Assembly: GCA_021378525.1 (NCBI GenBank)
Contig: JAACJW010000002.1
Span: forward strand, 1 to 64,000
Source: Ureaplasma sp. Hg2
Lineage (GTDB): Bacteria; Bacillota_I; Bacilli_A; Mycoplasmatales; Mycoplasmoidaceae
Length of the DNA: 64,000 nt
Direction: 5' to 3'
Part shown: positions 16,894 through 48,222 of the stretch, in pieces
Position numbering within the stretch: the first letter of the stretch is position 1
Layout: every line of letters begins with the position of its first letter
Program-made: the position numbers and the translations under genes
Notes under the pieces: generated by a model
Databases searched by the model: none
What the model saw: only the letters and a program-made list of their open reading frames with translations
Told to the model about the DNA's origin: nothing

Positions 16894-17850
16894 TTATTTA
16901 ATTGCTTCCTTTGCAATTTTTAAAGCTTCACTTAATATTTCGAACGAATTATTAAATTCTTTTTGTTCACTTGGTGTTAAAGGAATTTCAATGATTTGAT
17001 TAATCCCATCAATACCAATTGTTACTGGTACGCCCATGTAAATGTCGTTTACCTTAAATTGGTGATCTAAATATGCTGAAACCACATAGACTGCATTTGT
17101 ATTTCGAAGCACTGCTTCAGTAATTTGGGCGCACGCTTCACCGATTCCATAATATGTTGAACCTTGCGCTTTCAAAATTTCATAACCACGCATGTGAACA
17201 TCCTTAACCATTTGCTTGATATCATCATTTGTTAATTTCTTTTCTTTAATGTAATCAGTTAATGGTTTACCAGCAATATTAGCTGTGCTCAAGGGAAACA
17301 TTGAACTGTCCCCGTGTTCACCGAGCATTTGCGCATTAATTGATTCTGGCGCAATATTTAATTTATCAGATAACATTCGGGTTAAACGACCCGTGTCAAT
17401 TGCGGTTCCTGAACCGATTACAAGGTTCTTATCAAACCCAGTTACCTTTTGATAAACGTAACTTAAAACATCAACTGGATTAGAAGCGATGATCGTTACC
17501 CCACTAAAACCAGATGCCTTAACTTGTTTGGCAATACCCGCAATAATTTGCGCATTTTGGCCAACTCTTTTTAATCTTGTTTCACCAACTTTTTGTGATG
17601 TTCCAGCGGTGATTGTGATAACGTCATAATTTTTTAAGTCACCATATTTAATTTTATTGATATGAAATGGGAAAGTGTTAGCTTGACTTCCGTCTTGATA
17701 ATCCATCACCCGGCCATCCACTAATGTTTCGTTTAAATCAATCATTCCATACTGTGATGCTAGATTATGGTTAATGGCAGCATACATATAAGCGGCCCCA
17801 ACAGCTCCTGCGCCAATTAAGGCAATGCTGCGTTCTTTTAGTTTGTTCAT
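16894..17850 (-). CDS. ldh: L-lactate dehydrogenase
   Basis: IALIGAGAVGAAYMYAAINH, ITAGTSQKVGETRL, ASNPVDVLSYV, GSGTAIDTGRLTRMLSDKL, LGEHGDSSM. Confidence 0.95.
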   Translation of the reverse strand: MNKLKERSIALIGAGAVGAAYMYAAINHNLASQYGMIDLNETLVDGRVMDYQDGSQANTFPFHINKIKYGDLKNYDVITITAGTSQKVGETRLKRVGQNAQIIAGIAKQVKASGFSGVTIIASNPVDVLSYVYQKVTGFDKNLVIGSGTAIDTGRLTRMLSDKLNIAPESINAQMLGEHGDSSMFPLSTANIAGKPLTDYIKEKKLTNDDIKQMVKDVHMRGYEILKAQGSTYYGIGEACAQITEAVLRNTNAVYVVSAYLDHQFKVNDIYMGVPVTIGIDGINQIIEIPLTPSEQKEFNNSFEILSEALKIAKEAIK

Positions 17851-19739: not shown

Positions 19740-21419
19740 ATGTCAAAAATTAATTTTCTACCTTTGGGTGGAATGGATGAAAGAGGAAAAAATTGTTACG
19801 TCTTAGAAGTAGATAATAATATCTATATCTTTAATGCCGGTGTAACAACTCCGCCATCAGTATTATTAGGGATTAAGCAAGCAGTCGCTGACTTTTCATA
19901 CCTAGAAAAAAACAAATCAAAAATTCAAGGAATTTTTATTGGTGAACCATCATTCATGAATATCGGTGGGCTACACTTTTTATTAACTAAAATTGGAACA
20001 CATACACCAATTTTTACTAGTTTAGTTGGAAAGGTAATAATCGAAACTTACTTTGAAAAAAGATTTCGTAACATTAACATCAAACCAAATCTTGTAATCT
20101 TAAAAGAATTAGAAAAAAGTAAAATCGGTAATTTTGAAATTACTCCTTTTAAAATCTTTAACTCGTTACCATCTAGTTTCGGATGAGTTGTGCACACCCC
20201 GGATGGCGGCATTGTTTATGCTGATAACTTCATTGTAAGTTATGATCGTAACAAAACATTTGAATCACAACTTCATTTAGTCAATCAAATCACAAATAAT
20301 AAAACCTTATTATTACTAGCGCCAGCTGGTCAAGCTGGTAATGTTCATGGTTACACAGCGCCCCAACATAAAAGTAAAGACTTTTATGAACGCATGATTT
20401 CTAACAGCGATGGTCGAATCATTATCGCATGTTATGATTATGATGCTTATACCATTCTAACTTTAGCGCAAGTCGCTAAACAACACCAACGCCCTTTTAT
20501 TATCTATAGCAATACTTTTATTAACACTTTCACTTTATTGAACCGTAATAAAATGTTCAGTAATAAGAATTTAATCACTTTACCATTAAGTGAAATTAGT
20601 AAATCTAAAAATGCAATCGTGATTATCACCGGTACCAAAGATCAATTATTTCATAAAGTTCAACGAATTGTTGATGGTGAAGATGATAAAGTCCAATTTA
20701 GACAAGGTGATACATTTATTCTAGGAACTACTTTAGTGCCTGGTTATGAAGGTTATGCTGCTCGTCTACTTGATGGCGTTAGCCGTCATGACGTTCGCTT
20801 AGAAAAATTGCCAAAAACAATTTTACCTCTAATCCCTAGTGCTGAAGATTTAAAAATGTTCGTGGGAACAGTTAATCCTAAATATGTTATTCCAACATCA
20901 GGTTTATATAAAGCATTAATCCAATCAGAAGATGCAATGATTCAAGCTAACATTCGTAAATCACAAATCATGGTCTTAGGAAATGGTGAAATGATCACCA
21001 TTAATAATGGTGAAATGAATAAAAAACCAATTACAATAAAATTAGATGAAAAATACATCGGGGCACAAGGTGCTTTAGATGTTGGTGCTTCAATTTTATA
21101 TGAACGTAATCAAATGGCTGAAAGTGGAATTGTTACTTTAACAGTTTTATATAACCCAAAGGAAAGAAAATTCTATAATTTTAAAATCAATAAAATTGGT
21201 GTTATTAATGATAACGAACAAAATCCAAAATTAACATCTAACATCATCGAACGTTTAGAAAACGAATTAGCCGATTTAGCTGTCTATGATAGCAAAAAGA
21301 ATCGTTTAGACATTCGTGAAACTAAAATCATCGTTAAAAAAATGATCGCTAAATATTTTGAAAAATCGACTGGTAAACGACCTTTAGTTTTACCGACAAT
21401 TGTAGAGATTAGAAATTAA
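19740..21419 (+). CDS. RNase J family protein (catalytic motifs degenerate)
   Basis: MSKINFLPLGGMDERGKNCYVLEVDNNIYIFNAGV..., GRIIIACYDYDAYTILTLAQVAKQHQRPFIIYSN, RQGDTFILGTTLVPGYE: RNase J layout with the metal-binding motifs replaced. Confidence 0.85.
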
Positions 21420-21437: not shown

Positions 21438-23495
21438 ATGCCGTTCGGATGAATTAAAAAAGAAGACACTAAAGAGCAAATAATTACCGAGCAAACGGTT
21501 ACTAAGAAATTAGATTTAGCAGCTTCAGGAGTTGGGATTGAACCACCAATTGTCAAACAGAAATCTTTTAAAAATAGCTTTAAAAAGAATTATAATATTT
21601 ATTACATGATTGGAATTTCGATTGTTTTTTTATTTCTAATTCTTTCGTTAGCTCGCGTTCCGCATTTTGGTGATTATATCGATTCGACAATCTTTGACTT
21701 TATTTTTGGATGAACTAAATTTATTATTTACGCATTCCTTCTATTTGCTTGCATCTTGTATTTTATTCCTAAATTAAGAATGTTTTTATGAACTAAAAGA
21801 AAACTATTCGGAGCGATTTTCTTAACCTTAGGCTTTTCTTGAATTCTAGGAGCTAGCTTTGGGATTGATCATTATGGGATTGGTAGTACCGATTTTATGG
21901 CTTATTTAAATGATTATTTTAACCACTTCAAAGAAGTTATGTGACCCGCAACATGTGAGCATTATAATTATATTGACGTTCGGATTGATGGTGGTTTTAT
22001 TGGAATTTTAGGAATCGCGATTTTTTCAGCCTTTACTTTACCTTTAATCATTATTGTTGGTGCAATAGTAATGATCATAGCAGTTTCATTGTATATTCGT
22101 AAATCACGAAATGCAAAAACAACCGCTTGATTCAAAGCTAAATTAATTCATCTATTAGGTGGGATTACTAGCCTTGAAGAGCGAGACATTAAAGAAGAAT
22201 CAATTACGGTTCAAGGTGAACGCGATGTTCATCAACCGAGCATTAGAGAAATGACCCGTGCTGTTATGGGACATCAACAACATAATTTTAAATTTAAAAA
22301 TTATTATCACTATCTAGAAAAGTATGACTTTGAAAATAAGGATAACTTCCCGCACTTAAATGCTTTAAGTAATGAATCGAGCGATATTATTTTTGAAAGC
22401 AAGAAAACCTTAGACTCACTAAAATTTAGTTTAAACAACTTCTTTAAGTACATTCACGTTGATGCTGAATATAAGAAATCAGAAATCCTTTTTTCTTCGA
22501 TTAGTATTAGTTATGAATTAAAGGATGATGAAGCTTACAGTTTGATTAATCAAGACCAAGCTTCATTAGCTAATTGTTTAAATAGTAAAAAGTTCCATGC
22601 AAAATATAAGAACCGTTTATTGTACTTAGAAATCCCCACTGAACACGCCGCTAAAATTAGTTTACGCGATGTACTACAAGATATTGGATATGATAACCCG
22701 TTATCACTAGCGATTGGTAAAACAATTGATCGAATTCCAATCTTCCTTAATATGGTTAGTAGTAAAAATGTGATGATTCAAGGGGGCGCAGGGTCTGGTC
22801 GAATTATGTTATTAAGTGTTTTAACAGTTTCAGCTTTATTCTTAAATAGTCCTGAACATTTAAAACTATATATGTTTGATACCACCAACCGAAGCTTATC
22901 GAAATTTTTTGAAACCAAGCACTCTGTTGTTAGAAGACGTTTAAACCGTGGCGAAATCATTGATCAACTAAAACAATTGGCCAGCGAGTTAGATGCTGAA
23001 ACAATTAAATTGAAAAACACTAATTGTAAAACAATCTATGATTACAACACTAAAGTTGCAAACCCAAAACATATTCCAACACGATTAATTGTTATTAATG
23101 ACATTAATGATTTATTAGAAGAAAATAATGATGAATTTACAGCGTTAATAGAAAATCTATTACATCGTAGTGGTAGCAATGGTTTATGTGTTGTCTTAAG
23201 TTCAGCAACAACCAATGTCGCAACCATTAAGTTTAATAGCATGATGAACAACGTTATTGCTTTAAAGGTTGCTACCAATGCTGATAGTAAGTTATTGTTC
23301 AATCAGTCAGGCGCTGAATGATTGAACGGTAACGGAGATATGTATATTCAAAATGCAAAAGTTAAAGGTAATTTAATTAGAGCTCATTGTCCTTTCACAA
23401 GTAATAACGAAATAAGTCATATCATTGACATTATCAACGAAGCTAGCTTTAAAGTAGCAGAAGGTTCAGACTCATATGAAAACAATTTCAATTAA
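21438..23495 (+). CDS. FtsK/SpoIIIE-like membrane protein with degenerate Walker A
   Basis: N-terminal TM segments, then FtsK-like region: IPIFLNMVSSKNVMIQGGAGSGRIMLLSVLTVSALFL, RLIVINDINDLLEENNDEFTALIENLLHRSGSNGLCVVLSSATT. Confidence 0.75.
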
Positions 23496-25715: not shown

Positions 25716-27188
25716 TTAGTTTGTTGTTTCGTTTGTTGCTTCGTTGTAGTATAAATTAATGTTTTTAAATTTAAGTCTACTGCCATCAATTTTCATTACA
25801 TTAGTTGTTCTTATAGAAGGTTGGTGAACGTTTTTATATCTTCATGCTACATTGCTATCATCAACTGTTGAACTTCAGTTAGTTGTTCCACCTGAGTTAT
25901 ATTGAGTTGCTCTTGCTTGATGTTGGCTAATGTATTCTTGTTGGTCGAAGAATCGGTTGTGTCGTTCTAATAATTGACATAAACGAAGAAAATCATGATC
26001 TTTAATTAAAGGGTTTTGTTCTCCCATTTCGGCTAGGAAACCGGTAATGAAATGACTGATTTTAACTAATGTTTTTAATCGTTTTGATTGTTCATTAATT
26101 TTTTGTAAGATTTTATTTAACTCAACTTTTTCTAAACTAGTTTGTTGGATTGCATTTCTAGCTTCTTCAAGTTTAGAATTTGCATTATTAACATTTGCTC
26201 CATTTGTTGCTTCTGATAATGCCGCTTCTAATTCCTTAACATGTTGTCTTAAATTATTTAAATCTTCTTGATTAATTACAGATTTGTTTGCTAATTGAGT
26301 TTGTAATTCCGCAACTTGTTTTTTTAATTTATTTATTTCTTCGTTCTCATTTTGATTATCTTCATTCTCATATTGATTATCTTCGGGGCGATTATTAAGC
26401 ATGTCAGTTAATTCATCGTTTGTTGTTTTAAGTGTAACGATTTCACCTTCTAATTTTTCAATCGCAGAATTATCTTTTCTGTTTTCTGTTTCCATTGCTA
26501 ATTGATATTCTAAATCAGCGATTGTTTTAGTTAATTTTTCAACTTCGTTTTTATCGGTCTTAGACAATAAAAGTTTTTCTAATTCAGCAATTTTAAGTTT
26601 TAAGGCAGCAATGATATTCTTATTTTCTAATGATTCACCTTCAACTTGTTTGATTTTTTCATTGATTTCAGTAACAAGTTCTGGTGAAAAATCACGTTCT
26701 GTTCAATCAATCATACCACGGATAATGGTTGTGTTTTGAGGTATTTTACTACGATCAACATTATGCAAAAGATCTAGTTTTTTAAATGAAGTTTTGATCT
26801 TCTTTTTTTGTCCTGAATTTAAATTACCCGATTTAATTTCTTTTAATTCAGTCTCAACAGAATTAATCTCGTCCCTAATTCTAATACCTGATTCAGAAAT
26901 TGGTTTGTGTTGTAATTTACGAGCAATCACCCTTCCACCGTTATCTTTTTTCATATTAGTGACGTCATTTATTCTAGAGATTTGCTCTGTCATAAGCTCG
27001 TTTAGTTTAGCTATATCGATTGAACCATCAGATTTAGTAGCTTCCTCAAAAGCGTTTTCTTTAGCTTCTAAAATTCAATTTAGCGCTTTATCACTAACGA
27101 CTTGATACTTTACTTTTTTTTGATTTTCATCGTTTCCTTCCTGATCGATAATTTTGTTATTTTCGAATTTATTTTTTTCATCTGCCAT
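25716..27188 (-). CDS. Coiled-coil protein of unknown function (~490 aa)
   Basis: MADEKNKFENNKIIDQEGNDENQKKVKYQVVSDKALNW... plus long heptad-rich stretches (EEINKLKKQVAELQTQLANK); one frame joined across TGA. Confidence 0.85.
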
Positions 27189-46041: not shown

Positions 46042-48222
46042 TTATCGTCTTCGGCGACTACCTTTTGAAGGTTTCTTTTTATTTTTTTTGTTTTTGTTTT
46101 TGTCCTTTTTACCATTATTAGGGATATTGGCATTCTTAAATCAAGCATTTGCTTTTTTCTTTTCAGACCCTTTAACTACGATGGTGATAATAAGGGATAT
46201 TAAGATAATTCCGCCCAATATTCCAGCTCCAATATAAAGTCAAGAATAATCTGGCGGAGGTATTATTTTCTTTTTAAAGCCAGAATATGTCTTGGTATAA
46301 GTTTGAGAAACCTCAACCGGCAGGTTTGCAAAAGGTAAAGTTATTTTTAATGTGCCCGCTTGATCATCGGGTTTAACAATAACCGGAGTAGCGCCACTAC
46401 TATAATATTTAAAATTAGCTCCAATGGTTACATATGTTAAAGCTTCTGTGGTGCTAATAACCGATGCTAATTGATTTTTATTAATAAATTTATCACCATT
46501 ATCTCTTCAAACGATTTTTCAGGCTTTATCATCATAGTTGGATTTTAATAAACCGGTATATAATCGGGATGCGATATAGGTCGTTCCATCATCAACAACA
46601 ACCCGAATCGTAAGTGTTAATTCTCCAGCGGCATCATTTGGTGATAAATTAACTGTGATATCATTTTTACTAGCGTGAGTTGTAGCGAATTTACAATTAT
46701 ATACACCTTCTAATAATTGATCGTTCAATTGACTTGGTAGCATATGGCTTAAATTAGCTGGCAAATTCTCAAATTCGATACCCCGCATTAAACTATATGT
46801 TTTAAGAATGGTATCATATTGAGTAATCATGCCGTCGGTGTCATAAATCATCATTTTTGTTTTAGCTTCATCAGCCCAACCAAAACCACAAATGGTTTGG
46901 TTATCCTTTGGCAAGTAGAAAGCATTATCAATTTGTCCGCTCAAGTTAATTGTATCAGCATGAGAAGCTAAAATTTTTGATTGATCATTTGCTTGAAGAT
47001 AGTATATGTGGTTAAAATCATTTGAAACATCACCCTCTAAAATTTTGTCATTTATTTTAGTGTTTTTCTTTTGAGAACTAAAATCTGGATACGCCATATT
47101 AGCAAAATGACTTTGCGCGCCACTACTTGGAGCCACTCATCCCGAACCAAAAGTCGCTATGCTAGAATTGTCAATTGTTTTATTTGATAAACTTGGCATC
47201 AATCAATTAACTTTATAATTGCCGGCTTTAATATCTGTTTCAAAAAAATCATACACTTGACCAGGATTGGTACTGTATGTCTCTAAAACCAAGTGATTAT
47301 TAGAAGCGACAGTAAATTTAACACTGTAATAATTTACATTGTTAACATCGTGATGTAAAAGACGTGCTCTGGTGTACAGACCTAATTGATAACTCCCGTC
47401 ACTATTAGTTGTTATTTCAGTGTCCATAATTCTAAAGGCATCAGCATTTAAAGAGGATGAATCAATATATCCGGTTCCAATTGTATAGGGAGAAGAAGTA
47501 TTTAAAATCAAGTATTTGTTTTGAGTGGTAGAACCGCTTGCAACATAACGATCAATAAAAACTAAAAGTTTGTCATCGGCTTCAGTTTCACCGGGAATTA
47601 TATCAATGTTATAGCTTGAAGAAATTTGATTATCATGACCTGTTAAATCCTTGATATTAGTTAATTCTCCACTATTATAATTTCATTTTCAAATAACACC
47701 ATCTTTATTATGACCACCGTCACTTTCACTATATAACGCTGAAATATATAAATAATTTCCATCGCTTGATGCTTCAACATCTTGAATCATATAGAAACCA
47801 TAACTTGAGCTATTCTTTTTTATATCATCGCTAGTAAAAGAATTAACGTAGGTTCCATCGCTTTGATAAACCGATAGACCCTTAGCTGCGTTATTGATAA
47901 CATTAAAAATAATATCATCACCACTCTTTTTACCGGGTACTTTGAATGTCAAAACACTATTCATGTGATTAAAAATATTATAGTTGTGGTTATTAATGTT
48001 TAAACTACCAGAAGGTGATTTAGCAAAGACTTGAGGACCAGCGACACTGCCAAGGGAAGCGTTGTTGTCCACTTCATTTGTAGCATTATTTGAATTTAAA
48101 TTAGTTGCTTGGTTTAAGCTAGAAGCTGCATCAACCGTTGGAGATAAAAAAGTACTAAGTCCAATGACAAGAGAAGTTGTCATTAAAAACCCCATGATAT
48201 TAATAATTTTCTTCAATTTCAA
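46042..48222 (-). CDS. Surface protein paralog (~726 aa) with C-terminal TM and Lys/Arg-rich tail
   Basis: MKLKKIINIMGFLMTTSLVIGLSTFLSP..., FNHMNSVLTF..., NQTICGFGWADEAKTKMMIYDTDGMITQYD..., TM WLYIGAGILGGIILISLIITIVV, tail GKKDKNKNKKNKKKPSKGSRRRR. Confidence 0.85.

Follow-up and report, generated by a model that had tools for sequence, protein, structure and literature searches.

The locus and its neighbours

The window, here the whole stretch of 64,000 nucleotides of the Ureaplasma sp. Hg2 genome that was analysed, carries on the forward strand, at 19740..21419, the gene rnjB, encoding a putative RNase J2 (MG423-type) pseudo-nuclease of 559 amino acids. The frame is open solely when TGA is read as Trp (genetic code 4), the code of this genome, and harbours a single in-frame TGA at codon 149 (nt 20184-20186). 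Table 11 apparently splits the gene into 19740-20186 and 20190-21419; across the whole window, many genes appear split under that table. The assembly, 79% complete, spans 46 contigs with a total of 1.18 Mb.

Directly after rnjB lies an FtsK/SpoIIIE-like gene (21438..23495, forward strand), whose product alone exceeds the FtsK-family cut-off in the incomplete Hg2 assembly. Its Walker A motif is degenerate (GGAGSGRI), with Lys exchanged for Arg and Ser for Ile, and ND replaces DE in the Walker B-type strand. Among the clearly alignable FtsK neighbours of rnjB in the window's family (n = 12), the Lys is lost in 9, being replaced by R, I, T or A; loci considered in this connection include L032:6699-8750, L181-L192 and L199. 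L193 and L194, from two further families of the order, and the outgroups L137 and L142 have an FtsK whose Walker A is intact. The gene is under purifying selection, with a dN/dS of 0.052 against the congener Ureaplasma sp. Hg1, and its sequence suggests a maintained pseudo-translocase. Two genes upstream of rnjB, at 16894-17850 on the reverse strand, is a gene for L-lactate dehydrogenase (Ldh). Elsewhere in the window, the reverse-strand frames 25716-27188 (490 aa) and 46042-48222 (726 aa) gave no family match, the former in NCBIfam and the latter in a search of Pfam only.

Family assignment and predicted fold

The rnjB product belongs to the RNase J family by full-length homology, evident from NCBIfam, Pfam and the predicted fold. 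The NCBIfam model TIGR00649 (MG423, RNase J family) scores 392 bits over residues 4-554, slightly missing its cut-off of 400, while the Pfam domains RNase_J_b_CASP and RNase_J_C are matched above cut-off. No metallo-beta-lactamase model matched in the Pfam and NCBIfam profile searches. The nearest sequence with a structure is the RNase J2 of S. epidermidis. AlphaFold2, run with a 50-row alignment, returns an RNase J fold with a mean pLDDT of 89.4 and a pTM of 0.81, and the best PDB matches of this model in Foldseek are both chains of 9a5v, an integrative RNJ2-RNJ1 model (E 7e-48, TM 0.86), followed by RNase J crystal structures. The proposal, made at first reading, that the fold-defining remainder of the protein is intact agrees with this confident prediction.

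An emptied active site

Metal ligands in RNase J1 of B. subtilis and S. epidermidis are H74, H76, D78, H79, H142, D164 and H390, and in an alignment that includes 41 RNase J1 and 29 J2 from outgroups, E69, S71, M73, N74, N141, N163 and S387 stand at these positions in the rnjB product, with none of the seven kept. All of the features that follow were read from this alignment and lie on the forward strand. Motif 2, HxHxDH in J1, is EPSFMN (residues 69-74, 19944..19961), where H74 has become E, H76 S, D78 M and H79 N. Motif 3 reads NSLPSS, with N141 in place of H142 (20160..20162), and in motif 4 D164 is replaced by N163, preceded by D162 where J1 has Gly (20223..20228). The 5'-phosphate pocket is likewise lost, S366 and H368 of J1 corresponding to P363 and I365 (20826..20834), and so is the last metal ligand, H390, now S387 within PTSGLYK as opposed to PIHGEYR (20898..20900). 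This last His is missing from all J2 sequences aligned, those of the outgroup included. The original prediction had given the gene's coordinates, quoted its motifs and claimed the loss of essentially all metal-binding residues, and it was correct on each count. With HxHxDH and the other metal ligands absent, the product is, judged by these residues, a homologue of RNase J and not a catalytic member. The congener Hg1 (MAG), the only genome found in a protein-seeded scan of genome contigs with the rnjB product, encodes a protein 93% identical with the same emptied site.

Conserved positions in J2 lie elsewhere. E337 (20748..20750), a J2 signature residue, is invariant in mycoplasma J2 and present in 27 of 29 outgroup J2, the J1 residue being different, and D370 (20847..20849) is invariant in mycoplasma J2, D or E in outgroup J2 and Glu in J1. 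The invariant residues of the J2 alignment for the order are G11, G34, E337, D370, P380, G416 and G463, with no catalytic residue among them; in the J1 alignment all catalytic residues are invariant. D162, which adjoins the former motif-4 Asp, is invariant in all 33 J2 of the window's family and hints at a repacked pocket there.

Orthology and distribution

In a quick LG+C20 tree search on 86 sequences, the J2 of the order form a single clade (SH-aLRT 100). Support is likewise 100 for the branch dividing J1 from all J2, although several J2 branches are long and the branching order inside J2 is thus uncertain. The window protein groups outside the J1 clade (SH-aLRT 100), together with outgroup J2, in this quick tree with some long branches. 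At many J2 loci, though not in all genomes of the order, rnjB is followed by ftsK/spoIIIE as in the window, and the outgroups sharing this arrangement include L137 and L142, the latter with a J2 that still carries HGHEDH. In B. subtilis, too, rnjB lies close to spoIIIE. Since the protein is placed with J2 in the tree and its ftsK/spoIIIE neighbourhood is common to outgroup J2 loci, the gene is, on phylogeny and synteny, RnjB, the mycoplasma orthologue of RNase J2.

The same genome encodes an ordinary RNase J1 (G000:C23:34910-36550; locus L002) in which every motif is intact (THGHEDHIGG, CHSIPD, TGDFRFD, SSGH and PIHGEYK). A genome search for an intact RNase J, which the original prediction had named as a check, therefore gave a positive answer. 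RNase J1 shares domain order and fold with the window protein but has seven ligands in every genome checked, that is in all 41 aligned sequences, 27 from the Mycoplasmatales/Mollicutes order and 14 from the outgroup. J2 from the order retains 0-2 of the seven in 53 of 53 sequences checked; where a ligand is left, it is mostly the motif-4 Asp (at the D164 position, D in 22 and E in 12). J2 from other families of the class Bacilli (n = 29) has 3-6 ligands and never the last His, and the alignments thus trace a stepwise decay of the metal site along the J2 lineage, with complete loss in the mycoplasma order. An oddity of the Hg2 genome alone is ruled out by comparable loss in every J2 of the order examined; across these sequences, mycoplasma RNase J2 normally has an emptied site.

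Retention of both genes is widespread. An RNase J match is present in 200 of 201 genomes of the order and at least two RNase J homologues in 198, while two are found in almost every one of the 61 nearest genomes. Three genomes of high completeness (G017, G072, G227) gave zero RNase J candidates, which is not taken as true gene absence.

Selection on rnjB

The comparison of dN/dS among relatives, also named as a check in the original prediction, gives 0.042 for rnjB against the congener, with 0.037 for the intact RNase J1 and 0.049-0.14 for six neighbours; these ratios are approximate, as dS is near saturation (about 1), and for rnjB cover 559 codons. The gene is thus maintained, under purifying selection that is strong and matches the selection on RNase J1. 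Given the confident fold, this selection and the order-wide retention, the earlier description of a maintained pseudo-enzyme holds. A pseudogene or frameshift is ruled out by dN/dS and by conservation in relatives, and with a full-length ORF and comparable motif loss in those relatives, the chance that the gene is a decaying pseudogene or a sequencing artefact is negligible.

A probable non-catalytic partner of RNase J1

Because the residues that would hold the two catalytic metals and the 5' phosphate are lost, the rnjB product should have no RNase J chemistry, and it probably serves as a non-catalytic partner subunit of the intact RNase J1 encoded in the same genome. J2 would pair with J1 as it does in other Firmicutes, and would stabilise the J1 oligomer, shape RNA entry and anchor J1 to the decay machinery; by analogy, such pairing and assistance are the most likely arrangement. 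J1-J2 heteromers are known in B. subtilis, E. faecalis, S. mutans and S. aureus. The invariant E337 and D370, specific to J2 and outside the metal site, are counted in favour of a partner role. Over wider genome pairs, however, the rate of change of J2 is about 1.7 times that of J1, so parts of J2 are not tightly held, which counts against it.

Characterised J2 proteins of Bacillus, Staphylococcus and Enterococcus belong to the same orthologous group, by the tree and the rnjB-ftsK/spoIIIE order, and have the same fold, but they bind a single metal and are weakly active. The active site of S. aureus J2 is dispensable, as its mutant has no phenotype while the deletion of J2 has one; J2 is needed for J1 function there and has been proposed to be mainly structural (PMC3937233). 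In E. faecalis, J2 with a mutated catalytic site binds J1 like wild type, with a KD of 74-89 nM, yet J2 activity itself matters for one phenotype, so that J2 is not everywhere just structural (PMC5383250). An active J2 that associates stably with J1 is found in S. mutans (PMC6759994). In vitro, S. epidermidis J2 is largely monomeric, and obligate pairing is thus no given; it has one metal and reduced ligands, and its authors left open the state of other J2 (PMC7864078). Its second metal site is also degraded (D78 to H, H79 to A, D164 to E, H390 to Q), but it keeps the first two His, the motif-3 His and the SxH phosphate pocket, none of which is kept in the mycoplasma protein. The minimal cell Syn3.0 keeps RnjB, and with it both RNase J genes (PMC4993169), and a survey of Mollicutes discusses the possibility that both J1 and J2 are active (PMC4014445). 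The open-access literature searched, to which subscription papers did not belong, yielded no mention of J2 ligand loss in mycoplasmas and nothing on the activity of MG423, MPN621 or MPN280, and the B. subtilis crosslinking papers examined do not name RNase J in their main text. Judged from the alignments, the mycoplasma J2 is an end point of the known J2 range, with the catalytic ligands all gone and the protein kept.

An arrangement of this type has a counterpart in CPSF-100 and IntS9, degenerate beta-CASP partners of CPSF-73 and IntS11 in which an inactive paralogue is paired with an active one. The likeness would be one of working and not of membership, as these proteins are eukaryotic, of a distant family and with an independent loss; complexes of this type appear far down the Foldseek ranking.

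Continued nuclease action of J2, through a different or one-metal site, is very improbable. Its model would be S. epidermidis J2, which works with a single metal held by H76, H78, H80, H144 and E166 (PMC7864078), and an acidic residue does persist at the D164 position in several J2 of the order; however, all of these His ligands are gone from the window protein. That protein has 9 His and 2 Cys, scattered and unconserved, and no conserved cluster that might form a substitute His/Cys metal site was found, as judged from sequence. Beyond the usual RNase J positions, the conserved acidic residues of the family's J2 are D162, E337 and D370 only, which would not suffice to build a catalytic pair in any RNase J geometry known. 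A dead nuclease with a job independent of J1, as an RNA-binding or scaffold protein tied to FtsK (chromosome segregation or division) or to glycolytic enzymes of the degradosome, is unlikely, though it deserves somewhat more weight. The frequent adjacency of rnjB to an FtsK-like gene, itself degenerate in the window's family, would fit such a role, as would the new invariant D162 in the vacated site and the strong co-purification of S. mutans J2 with Ldh, its other strong partner there (PMC6759994); but the gene order is ancestral, being present in L142 with a HGHEDH-bearing J2 and an intact FtsK, and may be mere inheritance, and J1 is co-retained with J2 nearly everywhere. The presence of an Ldh gene near rnjB in the window is probably coincidence. 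More speculative still, and distinctly improbable, is that the J2 pocket was rebuilt in the order into a new functional site, through the recurrent exchange of H79 for N and, in the window's family, D162, and that J2 and the Walker A-dead FtsK of that family would together tie RNA decay to the membrane or nucleoid as a non-enzymatic scaffold.

Implications for the family

TIGR00649, named after MG423, is described as a ribonuclease, and as its mycoplasma J2 members lack the catalytic ligands, the function transferred to them is probably wrong; MG423 was not matched by name among the genomes used. The ribonuclease annotation of mycoplasma rnjB/MG423-family proteins should be revised, as should models in which minimal RNA decay involves two active RNase Js, a possibility raised earlier (PMC4014445). 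What RNase J2 does is poorly understood, and in model Firmicutes its weak activity complicates genetic work. Mycoplasma J2 would amount to a natural separation-of-function mutant, order-wide, strongly selected and with no catalytic site. Its retention indicates that a non-catalytic role alone can suffice for J2 to be kept, and opens that role to testing.
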